From a virus: 34,359 nucleotides of DNA. Location of the stretch: positions 1 to 34,359 of IMG/VR virus record IMGVR_UViG_3300025137_000134, one strand, 5' to 3'. A program made the translations under genes and the position numbers. The notes under the pieces are model-generated. The model made no database searches and was not told the DNA's origin. It saw only the letters and a program-made list of their open reading frames with translations. Shown in pieces: positions 6,673-29,466 of the stretch (position 1 is the stretch's first letter; every line of letters begins with the position of its first letter).

Positions 6673-7079
6673 AATTTACTTGTTTTAAATTTAAATTCTT
6701 CATAACTAGATGAAGCTAATATTTTTTCTAATTCCTCAATGTTTTTAATATTATTAGGATTTTTATGTACCGTTACAAATGTGCTATTAGTATGGGCATA
6801 TATTACTCTTTGATCACCAGCTTTAGATTTTTTATAAAAAGGTGCTGAATATTTTATTATTTTATCATTTGTTTTAATAGATACAGTGCCTTCAGTTAAA
6901 AACCATGCATGATCAAATGTGTGTATTGCACCTAGTACAATGCCTCCAGCGTGCATTTTCATTTCTCTTAAATAAATTTGATCTGCAAAAGTATGTTTAA
7001 CAGGAAAAGCATCATGAGTTGCTATTTTACCATTATTATGTACTAAAACAATATCGTCATTTAATTTTTCTATTTCCAT
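6669..7079 (-). CDS. Cupin-like protein in the virion gene cluster
   Basis: A 136-residue protein whose central region (residues 35-108) has the alternating short beta strands of a cupin barrel. Histidines and an acid sit in cupin-like places: H53, H57 and E63 in GAIHTFDHAWFLTEGTV, then H96 and H105 in AHTNSTFVTVHKNP. This pattern could bind a metal. There is no signal peptide. It lies between the tail-hub-like gene (TAATG overlap at 7079) and the internal virion protein gene (ATGA overlap at 6669), so it is co-translated with structural genes and may be a small virion component rather than an enzyme. The cupin call comes from motif spacing alone and is moderately sure. Confidence 0.6.
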   Translation of the reverse strand: MEIEKLNDDIVLVHNNGKIATHDAFPVKHTFADQIYLREMKMHAGGIVLGAIHTFDHAWFLTEGTVSIKTNDKIIKYSAPFYKKSKAGDQRVIYAHTNSTFVTVHKNPNNIKNIEELEKILASSSYEEFKFKTSKL

Positions 7080-8509
7080 TAATAAGATGATTCTATATAA
7101 TCCGAAGATACAGCAAATAATTCTTTTGCACCTCCAGGATCAGTAACAGAATCAGTAGATACTTTAACTGTTGCAAAATAGCCTTTAATACCTGTAACGG
7201 CATTTCCAAATATTACTTCACCTGCTGCAGCTACACTATTGTTTACTAAATTAGCTTTGTATTTGTTTTCCATACGTACAAATCCGGCATAATTAATTGG
7301 CGGAGTTAATACATTAGGAAATTGATTGCCATAATTATCATAAGCACCCTCATTATAACTATATACTTTTGTAGTTACATCTTGATTTATAGCAGATACA
7401 GCTATAGGATTACCAACTTTTTGTAAATCTGATTTAAAACTATCAACTTGCCATCCATTATCACCTTCATAATTAACTGTTTTAAAGACTTTTGATAAGC
7501 TTACTTGAGGATTAAATACAAACTCTATAGAAGATGAGCTGGTAGCACCATAAAACGTTCCATGGCTTACATCAGGGCTGTAATGAATATATAATGCTGC
7601 ATCGTTAAAAGTATAAAAGTTATTTTTTAAACTTGTTCCTAATGTTGGCTTATATGTATAAAAACTTTCCCATCCTTTTACATCTTCATTAAATGATAAT
7701 GTATGATATGTAGGGTTAGGTGCTGGTGCCTTATTCATATCTGGTTGTAATGATAATACATATTGTTTATTGTAAATATCCCACATACCCATTGCTTTAC
7801 CACTTGTAGTTGTACTATTTAATGAGCTTAAGTTATCTCTAAAAAAATCATACATCCCATATTTAGATATTTCTGATATACCATCAACTGACAATCTTAG
7901 TACAGCATTTCTTTCTTTATCAGTAAAATATTTTCTATAGCCATATACTGCAAAACTTTCTGGGTTTTTACTTATACCAAAGTTTCCAGCAAAAGCTTGT
8001 ATTTGACCAATTACATTAGGCCCAGTAGTTACAGTAGCATTACCTTCAGCTGAATAGATTGCATCTTTATCAATTAAAGCTCTATTAACTTTATTTTCTT
8101 GAAATATAACAAGATTTGTATCTTCTGCATATAACTTTTGTATTGAACCATTAGCTGGATCAACAGACTTAGTAATGTCTTCACCAACTGAAAATACATT
8201 TGTATCATTAATACCTGTTCTTGAATTAAATATTCCTGAATATATTAATGAATTTTGTTTGTGTATAGCATTTGGTTCAGATTCAACTAAATAGGCACGT
8301 ACTCCATAGTCTACATTAGTATTATTATAACCACCACGTATTCTAGCTTCTTCAATAAACCATGATTTTGATTGATTTGCTGTAGCATCTTGTGGTATAG
8401 CTTTAGCTGAACCATTAATACCATTCCAAATAACATTATCGCCGCTTGCATCTACAACTTTTCTTAATATAAAGCTGTTAAAATATTTAACTTCTACTAC
8501 TGCTGCCAT
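7079..8509 (-). CDS. Tail hub/stabilisation-like protein (second part)
   Basis: A 476-residue beta-rich protein starting MAAVVEVKYFNSFILRKV. Its middle carries the sequence NLVIFQENKVNRALI, then GISKNPESFAVYGYRKYF and RLSVDGISEISKYGMYDFFR, a block I associate with the C-terminal part of large tail stabilisation or hub proteins of crAss-like and related marine phages. It follows the 1434-residue hub gene by a 29-bp AT-rich gap with its own ATG. In related phages as I recall them, the two parts may be one polypeptide, which would make this a split hub; that is inference. No catalytic motif or signal peptide is seen. Its stop overlaps the next start as TAATG. Confidence 0.6.
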   Translation of the reverse strand: MAAVVEVKYFNSFILRKVVDASGDNVIWNGINGSAKAIPQDATANQSKSWFIEEARIRGGYNNTNVDYGVRAYLVESEPNAIHKQNSLIYSGIFNSRTGINDTNVFSVGEDITKSVDPANGSIQKLYAEDTNLVIFQENKVNRALIDKDAIYSAEGNATVTTGPNVIGQIQAFAGNFGISKNPESFAVYGYRKYFTDKERNAVLRLSVDGISEISKYGMYDFFRDNLSSLNSTTTSGKAMGMWDIYNKQYVLSLQPDMNKAPAPNPTYHTLSFNEDVKGWESFYTYKPTLGTSLKNNFYTFNDAALYIHYSPDVSHGTFYGATSSSSIEFVFNPQVSLSKVFKTVNYEGDNGWQVDSFKSDLQKVGNPIAVSAINQDVTTKVYSYNEGAYDNYGNQFPNVLTPPINYAGFVRMENKYKANLVNNSVAAAGEVIFGNAVTGIKGYFATVKVSTDSVTDPGGAKELFAVSSDYIESSY

Positions 8510-23131: not shown

Positions 23132-23403
23132 TATTTTGATCTTCGTTCAGCAAATCCACCAAATGATTCTTTTTTATCTAATGGCTTGTTTTCTAATAAA
23201 TTTTTTTCAGCTTCAATACGTGTAAGTATTTCAAATGCATCAAATATTGCTAATTTTTTTGTTGCTGCTGCATTTTTTAATCTATCTGCAGATATATCAT
23301 CGTCTCCTCCTGTAACAATTTTTTCTTCAGCTACTTTAATTAATTCTTTAACTGCTTTTTGCCCAGCTTGGATTATATTCAACTTCGTTTCCTTCGTATT
23401 CAT
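23131..23403 (-). CDS. Small terminase candidate
   Basis: A 90-residue acidic-to-neutral helical protein: AGQKAVKELIKVAEEK, then GGDDDISADRLKNAAATKKL and AIFDAFEILTRIEAEKNLLE, ending GGFAERRSK. Its place just before terL (TAATG overlap) and its helical, oligomer-like makeup suggest a DNA-recognition or motor-regulating subunit, but no helix-turn-helix can be identified with confidence. The start chosen overlaps the previous gene by 56 bp; no later ATG exists, so a shorter version would need a rare start codon. It could also be an unrelated packaging-block protein. Confidence 0.55.
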   Translation of the reverse strand: MNTKETKLNIIQAGQKAVKELIKVAEEKIVTGGDDDISADRLKNAAATKKLAIFDAFEILTRIEAEKNLLENKPLDKKESFGGFAERRSK

Positions 23404-23953
23404 ATTTGATTACTATATCATTAGATTGCATACAATAAAGTCTTTCATTATCAATAATAAAATCCCATTCACTATTTGGTGTAAATCCTACTAAGTCTCC
23501 TGGATTAATTCCAGTAGCTTTTAAGGACTTATTACCGTATTTTAATATACCAACAAGCTTTTTTTCTTTATCAAGCGTTAAAGTGTTTGTATCAAGTATT
23601 GGTTTTACAAAACAACGTTCAGAAATTGTATTCCATTTATTATTTTGTTTATATAAATACATTTGGCTTATATCACAAAAATATTGATTTTCTTTAAACC
23701 ACGATCGGCTATTTTGTTGTTTACCTTTCATGTTATAGAACTTTCTAAAAACATTTTGATGAACAACTACTAAATCGTTTTTTTTTACTTTAGTTGAATA
23801 TGCAATGGGTGTTTCAATTACTAAAGCAATTCTATTTATTGCTTTCCAGTTTTCAATAGATGTATTTAAAATTAATTTTTTATTTTTAATTTTAATTTCA
23901 TTATTGTATCGTTCCCCTGCAGGTTCTATAATAAAATCGTATATACTTTTCAT
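23348..23953 (-). CDS. Double GroES-like domain protein
   Basis: A 201-residue protein that appears to hold two GroES (Cpn10)-like beta barrels. Domain 1 (about 10-105) reads EIKIKNKKLILNTSIENW, INRIALVIETPIAYSTKVKK, NDLVVVHQNVFRKFY, FCDISQMYLYK. Domain 2 (about 112-185) reads FVKPIL, KLVGILKYGN, ATGINPGDLVGFTPNSEW, DFIIDNERLYCMQSNDIVIK. Domain 2 lines up by eye with the GroES of this same window (VISVGDEV, KQKDKIYF, HIIEINKTAYHVIKSSDIVV). The GGLLL-type mobile loop seen in the true GroES is not obvious in either domain, so binding to GroEL is uncertain. It sits two genes upstream of terL. It may be a structural or assembly factor using the barrel fold. The fold call rests on pattern, not on a search. 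Confidence 0.6.
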   Translation of the reverse strand: MKSIYDFIIEPAGERYNNEIKIKNKKLILNTSIENWKAINRIALVIETPIAYSTKVKKNDLVVVHQNVFRKFYNMKGKQQNSRSWFKENQYFCDISQMYLYKQNNKWNTISERCFVKPILDTNTLTLDKEKKLVGILKYGNKSLKATGINPGDLVGFTPNSEWDFIIDNERLYCMQSNDIVIKYEYEGNEVEYNPSWAKSS

Positions 23954-24863: not shown

Positions 24864-25349
24864 TTAATTTTTCTTAACAGAACTTTTAGCATTCATTCTT
24901 TGTATTTTTAATTCTTGTAATCTTTTCATTTTTGAAAGATCACCCGGTTGTATACCTCTTTGTTTAGCAATACTTGAAATTCTTTTTGCTTGATTTGGGT
25001 CTGTTCTACTTAATCTTCCATAAGCATCAGCGGACTTTTGAGCTTGAAATTGAGTTAATCTATCTGGTCCTTTAACTGAGGGAGTTGATTGCCTACCACT
25101 CATTTTTGTTTCAAATTCTTTTTCTAAAGATCCTAATGTGCGAGCAGATCCACCCACTTCTTTTTTATTAGAGCCTGTTCTTGAATCTTCAAAACCTTTT
25201 GGTGCTGGTCCAAATGGATCTTTTTTATGACCATCTATATGATTAAATAATGCACTAGATTCCATTTTTTTAATTGCATTATTTCTAAAAGGGCTTCCAT
25301 CAGAAGTAGCTCTGTTGTCAATAGGCATATATTTTAAATCTTTATTCAT
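24864..25349 (-). CDS. Basic motif-sharing protein A
   Basis: A 161-residue Ser/Lys/Arg-rich, probably disordered protein. The N-terminus carries DLKYMPIDNR (residues 4-13) and SSALFNHIDGHKKDP (31-45). Both motifs recur in nearby gene products (26593-26862 and 25851-26591). The rest includes KEVGGSARTLGSLEKEFETK, a KGPDRLTQFQAQKSADAYGR helix and a strongly basic end (LQELKIQRMNAKSSVKKN). There is no membrane segment. It is followed 3 bp later by the holin gene. The function is unknown; the motifs suggest a shared partner, for instance capsid, scaffold or DNA. Confidence 0.6.
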   Translation of the reverse strand: MNKDLKYMPIDNRATSDGSPFRNNAIKKMESSALFNHIDGHKKDPFGPAPKGFEDSRTGSNKKEVGGSARTLGSLEKEFETKMSGRQSTPSVKGPDRLTQFQAQKSADAYGRLSRTDPNQAKRISSIAKQRGIQPGDLSKMKRLQELKIQRMNAKSSVKKN

Positions 25350-25359
25350 TTTGTTTATA

Positions 25360-25674
25360 TTAAGTTGTTTTATTGTACGCTTCTTTTTCCCACGGTAAAT
25401 TTAAAGCACCTTCTTTCATTGTTGCGCGCGGATATGTTTTACCTTTCCAAAATACTGCAGAATCATTATAATCTAAATCACCACGACGCATTTGATCTAA
25501 ATGAACTTGCTCGTGGTTTATAACATTTCTTAACTGATCTTTATCAGTAATATCTTTATTAACTAAGATGCTACCATTTCGATTAGCCTTACCTAAAACA
25601 CCGTCACCTAAATCTACATTATAGATAGGAGTGTTATCAATAGTATATGGGGGGTTAGTCAAACTGAATGCCAC
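25360..25674 (-). CDS. Small HExxH metallopeptidase-like protein
   Basis: A 104-residue protein with a zincin-type active-site motif: HEQVH in VINHEQVHLDQMRRGDLDYN, followed by PWEKEAYNK near the C-terminus, where a Glu could be the third zinc ligand. The N-terminal part is beta-rich (IYNVDLGDGVLGKANRNGSI). The start is GTG at 25674, overlapping the upstream 60-residue gene by 20 bp; no earlier in-frame ATG fits. Protein length is near the minimum for a peptidase, so it may be a degenerate or non-enzymatic zincin fold. The substrate is unknown; virion-protein processing or an anti-host role would be guesses. Confidence 0.6.
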   Translation of the reverse strand: MAFSLTNPPYTIDNTPIYNVDLGDGVLGKANRNGSILVNKDITDKDQLRNVINHEQVHLDQMRRGDLDYNDSAVFWKGKTYPRATMKEGALNLPWEKEAYNKTT

Positions 25675-25837
25675 TTTTTTGTTGTTGTTTATATGGGAAC
25701 ATTTTATTTAATGCTTCTTTACGATGACTGCATCCACAGGGAATGTTTAATCCTTCTGAAACTCTATCTACAATTGTTTTAATTCCTGTAGCAGTAGTAA
25801 TTTTTTCTACTGTATCACCTAATCCTCTTGATTTCAT
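25655..25837 (-). CDS. Small Cys/His-containing conserved phage protein
   Basis: A 60-residue protein: MKSRGLGDTVEKITTATGIK, then VDRVSEGLNIPCGCSHRKEA and LNKMFPYKQQ. The CGCxHR cluster could hold a metal together with a partner chain. I recall close relatives (GLGDTxxKITxATGI and CGCxxRKExLN) in many phages of Bacteroidota and marine hosts, without a known function. It overlaps the HExxH gene by 20 bp and follows the 246-residue basic gene by 13 bp. No membrane segment is present. Confidence 0.65.
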   Translation of the reverse strand: MKSRGLGDTVEKITTATGIKTIVDRVSEGLNIPCGCSHRKEALNKMFPYKQQQKSGIQFD

Positions 25838-25850
25838 TTAATTATTTTTA

Positions 25851-26591
25851 TTACATTCTTTTTCCAATACGTTCTGCTCTTTTAGCCATTCTATCATATT
25901 TTCTTCTTTGCTTAAGTGCTTTTGATTGATTTTTAGCAATATCAGATGTACTACTTGAAGACTTAATATTTTTAATAGCTTTTTCACCTTTAGCTCTTGC
26001 TTGACTAGCTTTTGCAATAGTCTTTTTTAATCTTCTACTTTTTCTAGAATTTGTTGCATCTTTAACAATAGGCATAATTTTTAAATCAGCTTTTGCTTCT
26101 GCAGATTTAACTTTTGGTCCATCAGTTTTAATTTTTTGTGCATAAGTGTTAGTAGTTTTTACAGCTTTAACTTTCTTTCTTGCTTTTACTTTTGGTTTTG
26201 TTTTTACCGCCGGCTTTGTTTTAGCTGAAGAGCCTATACCAAATCCTTCATTTCCGGATCCATCATTTTGCACACCACTTGTTCCAATAGATTTTATTTG
26301 AGTTGGTGGTTTTAACTGATTAGATGCATAGTTAGCTTGTTTTTCAGTCATAGGACCAAAATCATTTTTTGCAGATCCAACAGGACCTAAATTGGCTTTA
26401 TTGGATGTAGACGTTTTTTTAGCAGCTAATTCAGCCATAGTAAGATTACCAGAAGCTCTTCTTCTTTGTTGCACTTTATCTGCAACTTCTTTAGTACCTA
26501 TACTTCTTAAAGCTTTTATAATTAATCCGTCAACTTCTAAGGGAGTTTTATAACCTTTATTAAGATTAAAAAGAGCTGAATTTTTTTTCAT
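25851..26591 (-). CDS. Large basic motif-sharing protein B
   Basis: A 246-residue protein, very rich in Lys, Arg, Ala and Ser. I chose ATG 26591 because it comes 2 bp after the upstream stop and gives MKKNSALFNLNKGYKTP, whose SALFNLNKGY motif matches the neighbour SALANLNKGY; the longer open frame to 26675 overlaps that gene. The middle is a Lys/Ala tract (KPAVKTKPKVKARKKVKAVK), then ADLKIMPIVKDATNSRKSRR, and the end is SKALKQRRKYDRMAKRAERI. The makeup recalls histone-H1-like or nucic-acid-binding tails. It may coat or condense phage DNA, or be packaged with it; this is inference from charge alone. Confidence 0.6.
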   Translation of the reverse strand: MKKNSALFNLNKGYKTPLEVDGLIIKALRSIGTKEVADKVQQRRRASGNLTMAELAAKKTSTSNKANLGPVGSAKNDFGPMTEKQANYASNQLKPPTQIKSIGTSGVQNDGSGNEGFGIGSSAKTKPAVKTKPKVKARKKVKAVKTTNTYAQKIKTDGPKVKSAEAKADLKIMPIVKDATNSRKSRRLKKTIAKASQARAKGEKAIKNIKSSSSTSDIAKNQSKALKQRRKYDRMAKRAERIGKRM

Positions 26592-26592
26592 G

Positions 26593-26862
26593 TTATTTTT
26601 TTGAATTAGCAGGTTTACCCATTTTTGATCCGTAACCTTTGTTAAGATTTGCAAGCGCAGAACCTCTATTATCAACAGGCATGTCTTTTAAATCTGCCGC
26701 AGCTTGTTTAGCAGCAGCTTCTTTGCTCATTCCTTTTGCTTTATATTCAGCCATTTTTCCTCCAAAGGCATTACCATTTAAAGGTGCTCCAAATTTATTA
26801 TTATCTGTTACGCCCTTCATGCTTAAAGGGTGTTTGCTTTGATTGTATCCCATTTTTTTCAT
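26593..26862 (-). CDS. Basic motif-sharing protein C
   Basis: An 89-residue Lys/Ala/Gly-rich protein: MKKMGYNQSKHPLSMKG, NKFGAPLNGNAFGGKMAEYK, a short Ala-rich helix MSKEAAAKQAAADLKDMP, then VDNRGSALANLNKGYGSKMG. DLKDMPVDNR (57-66) matches DLKYMPIDNR of the 161-residue gene, and SALANLNKGY (68-77) matches SALFNLNKGY of the gene just downstream. It ends 1 bp before that gene. No membrane segment or enzyme motif is seen. It is probably a virion-associated or assembly accessory of unknown role. Confidence 0.6.
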   Translation of the reverse strand: MKKMGYNQSKHPLSMKGVTDNNKFGAPLNGNAFGGKMAEYKAKGMSKEAAAKQAAADLKDMPVDNRGSALANLNKGYGSKMGKPANSKK

Positions 26863-26866
26863 AATA

Positions 26867-27079
26867 TTAGTGTTTCATGTGTTTACTTAAAAAAGATCCA
26901 TCACTCTTGATGTCCCCTGCTAGTTTTGAAATATGTTTTTCATCAGCTGTTTGATTAATATCTTTATATTTACCACCCTTACGCTGATCATCAAGTACAT
27001 CTCTCTTTAAATAATCAATGTGAGCTTTATCATCTCTCATTGCGGCACGTACATTGCCTTTAGTTATTTTAGTTCCCAT
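26867..27079 (-). CDS. Small charged hypothetical protein
   Basis: A 70-residue protein with many Lys, Asp and His residues: GNVRAAMRDDKAHIDYLKRD, LDDQRKGGKYKDINQTADEK, ISKLAGDIKSDGSFLSKHMK. It is predicted to be helical and soluble. I do not recognise the family. It lies within the run of small basic genes, 4 bp before protein C and 21 bp after the 59-residue gene, in the same transcript. It does not carry the DLKxMP or SALxN motifs. Confidence 0.55.
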   Translation of the reverse strand: MGTKITKGNVRAAMRDDKAHIDYLKRDVLDDQRKGGKYKDINQTADEKHISKLAGDIKSDGSFLSKHMKH

Positions 27080-27100: not shown

Positions 27101-27280
27101 TTATTTTTTGCAACCAAAGTTATTTGCATAGTTTGCCATTTCTCTAACGTCTTTACTATACTTACCTTTTTTTGCTTTCATCACTGCTGAAGCTGCAGAA
27201 CAAGCATCTTTAAAACCATTAGCTTTTGCCCATGTTGTAAATTTACCTCTGTTTGCTTTTTTAATTTGTGGAAATTTTTT
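27101..27280 (-). CDS. Small basic Cys-containing conserved phage protein
   Basis: A 59-residue protein. I chose ATG 27280 (MKKFPQIKKANRGKFTTWAK), 13 bp after the upstream stop; a longer frame to 27358 would overlap that gene by 65 bp. The sequence continues NGFKDACSAASAVMKAKKGK and REMANYANNFGCKK. Two cysteines (one central, one near the end) could pair or bind metal. I recall similar proteins next to the 106-residue basic family below in marine phages; the function is unknown. The composition is strongly basic, and nucleic-acid or virion binding is possible. Confidence 0.6.
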   Translation of the reverse strand, partial: KKFPQIKKANRGKFTTWAKANGFKDACSAASAVMKAKKGKYSKDVREMANYANNFGCKK

Positions 27281-27293
27281 CATAATTTTTATT

Positions 27294-27614
27294 TTAGCAG
27301 TTCCATCGACGTCGTGCAGCTCTACCTCTTTTAGATTTCCATCCTTTAGATCGAGCACAAAATGATTTACGTCTTTTCCAAGCTTTACTTCCTTTTTTAA
27401 TTTTCTTAGGATCTTTAGTAACTGCCGTTTGCAGTTTGCTACCTGGATTATCTCTTTTATATTTTTTAACGCCTTTTTCAGACATTCCTCCCCCAGCCGC
27501 AGCTCCTGTACCTGTAGACTTAGCTTTATTATAATAGCCTAATGACTTCTTTTTTGAAGGAGCAGGGGGCTTTGATTTTTTAAGGAATGGTGAATTTGTT
27601 TGTACGTACGGCAT
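27294..27614 (-). CDS. Basic conserved phage protein with KRRKSFCAR...RRRWNC end
   Basis: A 106-residue protein, extremely Lys/Arg-rich. The N-terminal 45 residues are a Pro/Lys/Gly linker (PPAPSKKKSLGYYNK; GTGAAAGGGMSEKGVKKYKR), followed by NPGSKLQTAVTKDPKKIKKG and SKAWKRRKSFCARSKGW, ending RAARRRWNC. The KRRKSFCAR plus RRRWNC pair is a hallmark of a small family of unknown function that I recall in many marine phages (possibly DUF6321, number not certain). It is positively charged enough to bind nucleic acid. The start ATG at 27614 abuts the end of the endolysin gene. Confidence 0.75.
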   Translation of the reverse strand: MPYVQTNSPFLKKSKPPAPSKKKSLGYYNKAKSTGTGAAAGGGMSEKGVKKYKRDNPGSKLQTAVTKDPKKIKKGSKAWKRRKSFCARSKGWKSKRGRAARRRWNC

Positions 27615-28246: not shown

Positions 28247-28519
28247 TTAAAATTTAGCATTACCTGTATATCTTTTTACAGACTTAAGGGCATTTGCATC
28301 TCCTCCTTTATTAGCTTGAGCTATTGAAGTAATAGGTGTACCTGCAGGATATGCTTTTGTAGGATATTTAGAAACTTCCATTCCATTAATACCACTACTA
28401 GAACCTGGTGCGTGCTGACGATTGTCTTGACTTAAAGGCCCGTCCCATATATGTGATTCACCTACTATTCCTACTTTTTTATTTTTTGATGCTGCATTGT
28501 ATGCTTTATCTTCTTTCAT
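28247..28519 (-). CDS. Small hypothetical protein
   Basis: A 90-residue Gly/Ser/Lys-rich polar protein: AYNAASKNKKVGIVGESHIW, then DGPLSQDNRQHAPGSSSGIN, then PAGTPITSIAQANKGG and KSVKRYTGNAKF. I do not recognise a family or motif; it is probably extended or disordered and soluble. It starts in an ATGA overlap with the stop of the upstream 80-residue gene and ends 7 bp before the small membrane protein. A virion-accessory role would fit neighbours, but there is no direct evidence. Confidence 0.55.
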   Translation of the reverse strand: MKEDKAYNAASKNKKVGIVGESHIWDGPLSQDNRQHAPGSSSGINGMEVSKYPTKAYPAGTPITSIAQANKGGDANALKSVKRYTGNAKF

Positions 28520-28758
28520 TGTGTATTATTTAAATTTGTTGTTGGTATTTCTCTATCAAATGAATTAGGTATGGGTTGTCCAAATATTTGTGCTCCAGTT
28601 TGCATTTCTCTAGGAGTAAATGGTGAGGGAGACATAGCAGGACCCCTACTTGCTTGTCCTGGAATTGGCATAATTCCTTGTAAGTCAGCAGAAGGTAATG
28701 TTGTTCCCATAGGATCAACAGCTCCTAAATAACTAAATGCTGATTCTTCTTTTTTCAT
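28516..28758 (-). CDS. Small Pro/Gly/Ser-rich hypothetical protein
   Basis: An 80-residue protein. I chose ATG 28758, the second base after the upstream stop, giving MKKEESAFSYLGAVDPMG; an earlier ATG at 28776 overlaps the previous gene. The sequence is Pro/Gly/Ser-rich (PSADLQGIMPIPGQASRGPA; SPSPFTPREMQTGAQIFGQP) and likely disordered. The N-terminal ESAFSYLG...DP is a weak version of the SALFN...DP motif of the basic proteins downstream. No enzyme motif is seen. The stop overlaps the next start as ATGA. Confidence 0.55.
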   Translation of the reverse strand: MKKEESAFSYLGAVDPMGTTLPSADLQGIMPIPGQASRGPAMSPSPFTPREMQTGAQIFGQPIPNSFDREIPTTNLNNTQ

Positions 28759-28759
28759 A

Positions 28760-29206
28760 TTATCTATTTTTATCATTATTTACATTTTTTATTGCAGTTT
28801 GCAAAACAATATCAGTGTAAGTTTTACCCCTCATAATTGAATTTCTTTTTTCACTACTAGGAATATCTTCTTCACCAAGCATAATACGGTACATTCTACT
28901 TATTAGCTGTTTACACTTAAATGAAACTTTGTATATGTTATACTTTTGAGTAGTTTGATTCCGACGTCTCCATACTTCAATCCAACTCTCTTTCAATAAT
29001 CTGTTCCAGCGCTTATTATCCCAGCTGTAAGCGTACGTACCTATCTTATAATCTTGTTTTGTAAATAATTTAGTGCAATCAAAATAAATTAAAAGCTCTA
29101 AATCAGCATCATTTAAATTGTTATTACGACAAGCCCACTTTCGAATTATTCTATAATGTTTTAGCAAGTTTATATCTCTTAATTCACTTGCCTCAAGCTT
29201 TTTCAT
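28760..29206 (-). CDS. Possible winged-helix regulator or DNA-binding protein
   Basis: A 148-residue basic protein. Residues 10-110 have the order expected of a winged helix: helices (RDINLLKHYRIIRKWACRNN; NDADLELLIYFDC), a recognition-like helix with Trp and Arg (SWDNKRWNRLLKESWIEVW), then a hairpin (RRNQTTQKYNIYKVSFKCKQ). The C-terminal 40 residues are polar (LGEEDIPSSEKRNSIMRGKT). This is a pattern call, not a family hit. It is placed directly after groES (ATGA overlap at 29206) and before small accessory genes, which would suit a late-gene regulator or a DNA-binding packaging factor. Confidence 0.5.
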   Translation of the reverse strand: MKKLEASELRDINLLKHYRIIRKWACRNNNLNDADLELLIYFDCTKLFTKQDYKIGTYAYSWDNKRWNRLLKESWIEVWRRRNQTTQKYNIYKVSFKCKQLISRMYRIMLGEEDIPSSEKRNSIMRGKTYTDIVLQTAIKNVNNDKNR

Positions 29207-29466
29207 AACACTACAACTATATCAGAAGATTTTATAACATGATAAGCTGTTTTGTTTATTTCTATAATATGTCCAGCATGTTTATCAAAATATATTTTAT
29301 CTTTTTGTTTTATGCCTTCAACTTCATCACCTACTGATATTACTTCTGCTTCTATATATCTTACATCATCTTTATGAGCATCCGCTAAAAGCAATCCTCC
29401 TTCTGTTTTAGATATTTCTTTAGCTGTCTTATTTATTATTAAATTTCTACCTATTGCCTTCATCAA
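29203..29466 (-). CDS. groES: Phage co-chaperonin GroES
   Basis: An 87-residue protein matching Cpn10: AIGRNLIINKTA at the N-terminus, a mobile-loop-like KTEGGLLLADAHKDDVR, then AEVISVGDEVEGIKQKDKIY and HVIKSSDIVVVL at the end. The mobile loop GGLLL carries the hydrophobic tripeptide that docks on GroEL. The length is near that of bacterial GroES (about 97 residues). Its start overlaps the end of groEL by 20 bp, so the order is groEL then groES, opposite to the bacterial operon. Phage co-chaperonins of this kind help fold capsid or other late proteins, as gp31 does in T4. Confidence 0.85.
   Translation of the reverse strand: MMKAIGRNLIINKTAKEISKTEGGLLLADAHKDDVRYIEAEVISVGDEVEGIKQKDKIYFDKHAGHIIEINKTAYHVIKSSDIVVVL

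Follow-up and report, generated by a model that had tools for sequence, protein, structure and literature searches.

Portable short motifs on small basic proteins of podovirus-like Bacteroidetes phages as a candidate signal for loading into the virion

In phage T4, the capsid targeting sequence (CTS), a short conserved signal, is carried by very diverse small packaged proteins (PMC3012670). The motif-bearing (tagged) proteins that we describe here resemble the T4 system of CTS, IPI-III and Alt in that a short, swappable signal is found on otherwise unrelated, basic (here putative) cargos. The differences are that, by eye, the leaders have no recognisable sequence similarity to the CTS and that there are several motif types, located N-terminally, internally or C-terminally, unlike a classical single leader. 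The phage is also of another kind, a podovirus with a crassvirus-like tail in which no T4-type prohead protease was identified; since its head genes and leader sequences are unrelated to those of T4, we do not regard the system as a member of the T4 family. There is a further likeness to the cargo protein C1 (gp45) of PhicrAss001, which is located in the capsid and tail (PMC10172136): a basic GKFTA domain is common to C1 homologues and small tagged proteins, and the phage also has a crassvirus muzzle domain. C1, however, is an 840-residue protein, whereas here the GKFTA domain is a separate protein of 60-70 residues with an SPF leader or none. Virion proteins of T4-like cyanophages (S-SCSM1 gp029, S-B43, and S-CREM2 ORF137) contain DUF6321 and a CYHKVKSRYxxWPSAYASG domain in common with tagged proteins (up to 89% identical), but fused in one protein of 430-520 residues that lacks an SPF leader. 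In the syntenic region of the Pervagoviridae phage phi38:1, gp069 and gp080 are likewise small, basic (Lys-rich), encoded before the packaging genes and annotated as structural, but they have no motifs, and a remark in the annotation points to their likeness to another phage.

The window, by which we mean the whole stretch of 34,359 nucleotides that was analysed, represents part of the genome of a podovirus-like Bacteroidetes phage. Its terminase, portal and capsid match the PHROGs phrog_6681, phrog_6547 and phrog_13704. The same terminase is found in isolates (Flavobacterium elemo phages, Cellulophaga phages of the phi38:1, Calle and phi13:2 groups, and Tenacibaculum and Maribacter phages), the relatives of the portal are mostly in Bacteroidetes MAGs, and the relatives of the phage as a whole are phages of Bacteroidetes with crassvirus-type tail genes. 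A structural protein of the window (7079-8509, minus strand) has the crassvirus muzzle C-terminal domain (Pfam PF25729, 39.2 bits against a cut-off of 27), here in a marine phage that is not one of the named Crassvirales, and this suggests that a tail gatekeeper may be common to both phage groups. The 255-residue protein, which with a 521-residue one is located where C1 and C2 would be, has no match in the PDB. The genes of the tagged proteins sit between GroEL and terminase, with GroEL, GroES and a second GroES-like gene flanking the cluster. One phage thus carries GroEL plus two GroES-like genes (23348-23953 and 29203-29466), and the gene for the 201-residue GroES-like protein adjoins terminase in many relatives. 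A 61.6-kb contig with an identical cluster has five motif genes among its ~91 ORFs, all within one 2.75-kb stretch; the single further regex match is in a fibre-like gene.

The sequence-only reading had described two short motifs in proteins of 161, 89 and 246 residues, and all of these are present as it described them, on the minus strand, to which every coordinate in this paragraph refers. The 161-residue protein (24864-25349, net charge +16) consists of a 42-residue leader that is found in relatives (MNKDLKYMPIDNRATSDGSPFRNNAIKKMESSALFNHIDGHK, 25224-25349) and a variable body; within the leader, GSPF at residues 18-21 lies between DLKYMPIDNR (residues 4-13, 25311-25340) and SALFN (residues 32-36, 25242-25256). 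The 246-residue protein (25851-26591, +43), whose length is correct and whose start is the ATG at 26591 and not an upstream TTG, has a SALFNLNKGYK leader (SALFNLNKGY at residues 5-14, 26550-26579) and the variant DLKIMPIVKD internally (residues 169-178, 26058-26087). The 89-residue protein (26593-26862, +11) is conserved in two related loci, L192 and L193, and gives dN/dS values of 0.07-0.16 by codon comparison. It has a DLKDMPVDNR-GSALANLNKGYG tail, with DLKDMPVDNR at residues 57-66 and SALANLNKGYG at 68-78; the double motif DLKDMPVDNRGSALANLNKGYG (26629-26694) has a close match in L013, where KNLLKDNPIDSRASKGSPAMNLNKGYG and, further on, KMKGSFISKHM are encoded between GroEL and terminase. 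None of the three proteins matches anything significantly in Pfam, PHROGs or NCBIfam. Their description as otherwise dissimilar was mostly right, but the 89- and 246-residue proteins are two halves of one fused 313-residue protein in L197. The motif set reaches past 26862, where the earlier reading had ended it, into two neighbours that it missed: a 70-residue protein with GSFLSKHMKH at its end (26867-27079; two predicted helices at low confidence, AF2 pLDDT 61) and a 106-residue DUF6321 protein (27294-27614, +30) with the leader MPYVQTNSPFLKKSK and an NSPFLKK start. An untagged 60-residue GKFTA domain (27101-27283, ATG at 27283) is encoded between them, and the same domain has an SPF leader in L098, L102, L122 and L127. 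A conserved small protein of 60 residues (25655-25837) has no motifs. The weaker ESAFSYLG form noted in the 86-residue protein (28516-28776) is real, but it is kept only in the closest relatives (L083 and L206) and degrades in L193, which makes it a weak case; the syntenic genes elsewhere often start with SPL or SPN leaders.

Conservation was evaluated in 160 viral loci (80 anchored on GroEL and 80 on TerL), the contigs of which are fragments. At least one regex-positive gene is present in 56 of the 77 complete GroEL-terminase spans, and none by these regexes in the other 21; one span, that of L032, encodes GSFMSKHAKNLLNYMPIDDR. Among 1017 non-redundant small ORF proteins of the relatives, the observed counts far exceed those in residue shuffles, which keep composition and ignore relatedness (L..[MN]P[IV]: 14 and 0.7, NLNKG: 8 and 0.2, GS[FWY][LIMV][SA]KH: 16 and 0.0, SP[FL] within the first 20 residues: 47 and 4.8, SPxxM: 39 and 2.7), the patterns having been partly chosen and refined on the same data as were counted. 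The leader/body swaps, the codon-level constraint and the collection-wide pattern scans serve as independent checks. Two exact degenerate DNA patterns gave 44 stretches over 2.9 million viral contigs, and of the 42 scan loci whose context was inspected (L170-L211), 41 have two or more of the landmark genes that characterise this phage lineage; the exception, L203, covers just a short part of a longer contig, which also has an SPLF-tagged protein. The motif search thus found the motifs conserved across relatives, far above shuffled controls, and this rules out a lack of conservation as an objection to the sequence-only reading. The motifs are absent from the genes read in the cultured or reference relatives (elemo, phi38:1, phi13:2, and MW202828), so the virion data for those phages are not directly transferable, and a motif-rich 83-residue protein had no match when searched against cultured phages. 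No prior description of the motifs was found in the literature searched, which left out most subscription papers.

The 42-residue leader of the 161-residue protein is common to L082, L083, L210, L197 and L193, and L203 has the initial 14 residues. In L193, L197 and L203, the bodies behind it are unrelated to that of the window, such that this leader precedes three or four bodies with no relation to one another. Conversely, L001 and L085 have proteins with ~50% identity to the L197 body, and these start with a MAFKLPQSPF leader instead. Codon comparison with the three closest orthologues (L082, L083, and L210) gives dN/dS values for the leader of 0.01, 0.04 and 0.11 against 0.50, 0.26 and 0.57 for the body; in the more distant pairs (L197 and L193) the leader value is 0.28, and the body values there are meaningless because the bodies are non-homologous. 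As synonymous sites in the leader have changed about as much as elsewhere, the constraint acts on the peptide, and the leader is under strong purifying selection. In a general search, similarity was limited to the first 50 residues in 246 protein pairs, some of which are tail-fibre leaders and form a separate case, and to the body in another 42 pairs, which have recognisable leaders. The type-I leader (M[AP][YF]xQ..SP[FL]) occurs in 37 distinct proteins against 0.2 in shuffles; the bodies that it precedes are of about six unrelated kinds, apart from one reverse-strand ORF that is spurious. We considered the capsid N-termini, which read SPLFG in some phages, as a source of the SPF tag, but dropped this idea as the residues vary (APVFG, APEYG, and DPQFG).

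The body of the 106-residue protein is a DUF6321 domain (PF19846, 40.3 bits against the Pfam gathering cut-off of 28.5), which forms the C-terminus of the cyanophage virion proteins S-CREM2 ORF137 and S-SCSM1 gp029. ORF137 was detected in virions by mass spectrometry (PMC10665884, Table 3); gp029 is annotated as a virion protein in its record, and the S-SCSM1 virion proteome was determined from CsCl-purified phage (PMC9602691). A 51-residue protein of a related locus (L183, 5846-6001) starts with the leader MAYTQNNSPFAK, and the rest of it is a domain with ~89% identity to an internal segment of the T4-like cyanophage protein gp029, which itself is without such a leader; a recent transfer of this domain between phages of very different hosts seems likely. 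The GKFTA domain of L122 matches crassvirus C1 homologues (tblastn; cr127_1: 5e-7, cr128_1: 6e-4), and the cr128_1 protein matches gp45 (PDB 7qog_M, E=1.5e-148). A GKFTA-domain profile did not reach gp45 in the PDB and the window member had no direct gp45 match either, so the link to C1 rests on cr127_1 and cr128_1; the domain also weakly matches a cr50_1 gene with a non-virion annotation. Of course, a small tagged protein need not be packaged just because its domain occurs in virion proteins of other phages.

On balance, we favour an explanation in which portable docking leaders and tails would load small basic proteins into the virion. The proposed tags (MNKDLKxMPxDNRAS..SPF..SALFN, MAYxQxxSPFLxK, MSSPFQKxFxxKSPL, GSFMSKH, and NLNKGYG) are found on late proteins that are small, basic and mostly disordered and have their genes between GroEL and terminase. 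During assembly, the tags would most likely bind a common partner, be it the capsid, the scaffold, the portal or the tail interior; such binding would load unrelated cargo domains into the particle, and the loaded cargo would then probably be delivered with the DNA. The median net charge per 100 residues is +8.6 for tagged proteins against +2.3 for the other genes of the span (p=3e-9), and the fraction of order-promoting residues is 0.179 against 0.287 (p=3e-18); large virion proteins and GroEL have hardly any of the motifs. The strong positive charge that had been ascribed to the proteins is confirmed by the values given above, and that of the bodies is compatible with putative binding of DNA or the capsid lumen. 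What is observed is that the motifs are conserved, under selection and swapped as modules, the charge and genomic setting of the proteins, and the homology of three tagged domains to virion-protein domains elsewhere; virion presence, the partner, delivery and what each cargo does are inferred. As far as sequence evidence reaches, there is good support for the original suggestion of a common docking or encapsidation signal, as the leaders are conserved, portable, under selection and found on virion-protein domains of other phages. More tentatively, a set of short motifs that can stand in for one another and bear no relation to the T4 signal might constitute a lineage-wide 'zip code' for virion loading, by which packaged proteins, including cyanophage-virion domains, would be freely swapped among uncultured marine Bacteroidetes phages.

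Proteins that are compositionally biased and mostly disordered could resemble one another by chance or through low complexity in Lys/Ser/Pro-rich sequence. Such an origin of the motifs is contradicted by the data and is barely credible: shuffles that keep composition yield far fewer matches, the leader dN/dS is 0.01-0.11 at a pS of about 0.4-0.6, and in 2.9 million contigs the exact patterns occur in a single lineage. The charge, together with the SPAKM, SPMKM and SPFLKK forms, would also suit DNA-condensing, histone-like proteins in which SPxK is a minor-groove motif like the SPKK of histone H1. However, the motifs under the strongest constraint (DLKxMPIDNR and GSFMSKH) are in part acidic and hydrophobic, many SPF/SPL leaders lack a Lys at +3, and DNA binding leaves the swapping of bodies behind one 42-residue leader unexplained; we consider a histone-like function quite improbable. 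Inside the infected cell, the tags might instead attach the proteins to a partner that is not part of the virion, such as the phage GroEL, RNA polymerase or a host factor. The chaperonin genes that flank the cluster are in keeping with this, and hydrophobic cores of the SWM/SFM type are plausible chaperonin ligands from GroEL peptide work, although our literature check for strong-binding GroEL peptides found nothing. Since the elemo and MW202828 phages encode GroEL without having the motifs, and tagged bodies match virion proteins elsewhere, we judge a non-virion partner to be unlikely.

The motifs could also be recognition or cleavage sites of a maturation protease, possibly the mini zinc peptidase-like protein of 104 residues encoded within the cluster (25360-25674, minus strand, GTG start); the T4 prohead protease acts on internal proteins. 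In the 104-residue protein, HExxH and a W-E near the end are invariant across 24 homologues, and the AF2 model has a pLDDT of 86. The nearest solved folds are the mini zinc peptidases abylysin and selecase, a weak match (E 0.26-0.4), and there are SprT-like viral relatives (E about 1e-4). The predicted peptidase is present in nearly every motif-bearing locus, its N-terminus itself resembles an SPF leader (relatives begin MAFKLxxPPF), and processing is compatible with a docking role, so both could hold. Nevertheless, the usual substrates (capsid, portal, and putative scaffold) are almost without motifs, there is no conserved residue that would indicate a single cut site, the position of the motif within the protein varies, and the neighbourhood of the peptidase gene alone accounts for the co-occurrence. 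We think it improbable that the motifs are protease sites, although the predicted HExxH protein could be a processor of tagged proteins. A relative of it is found inside a 301-residue viral protein (A0A218MLK9, 45% identity).

If virion loading by docking leaders and tails is correct, a simple leader pattern would predict which of the many small proteins without annotation in this common group of marine phages enter host cells, and the function of many 'hypothetical' genes would become directly testable. It would also mean that crassvirus-like podoviruses evolved capsid targeting in the style of T4 on their own, and it would provide a new tool to load proteins into phage particles.

Two other N-terminal modules were noted in the relatives. 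Upstream of GroEL, a separate 45-residue MAIIP leader, probably a tail-fibre anchor, is found on otherwise different proteins (L115: 2178-3528, L141: 3220-5922, L129: 2112-2849). A swappable helix module, KEAYNKxLxxxARLHYLENARHD, precedes different tails (L109: 10448-10873, L140: 10354-10611, L103: 10527-10781, L020: 2532-3275, L161: 4963-5328).
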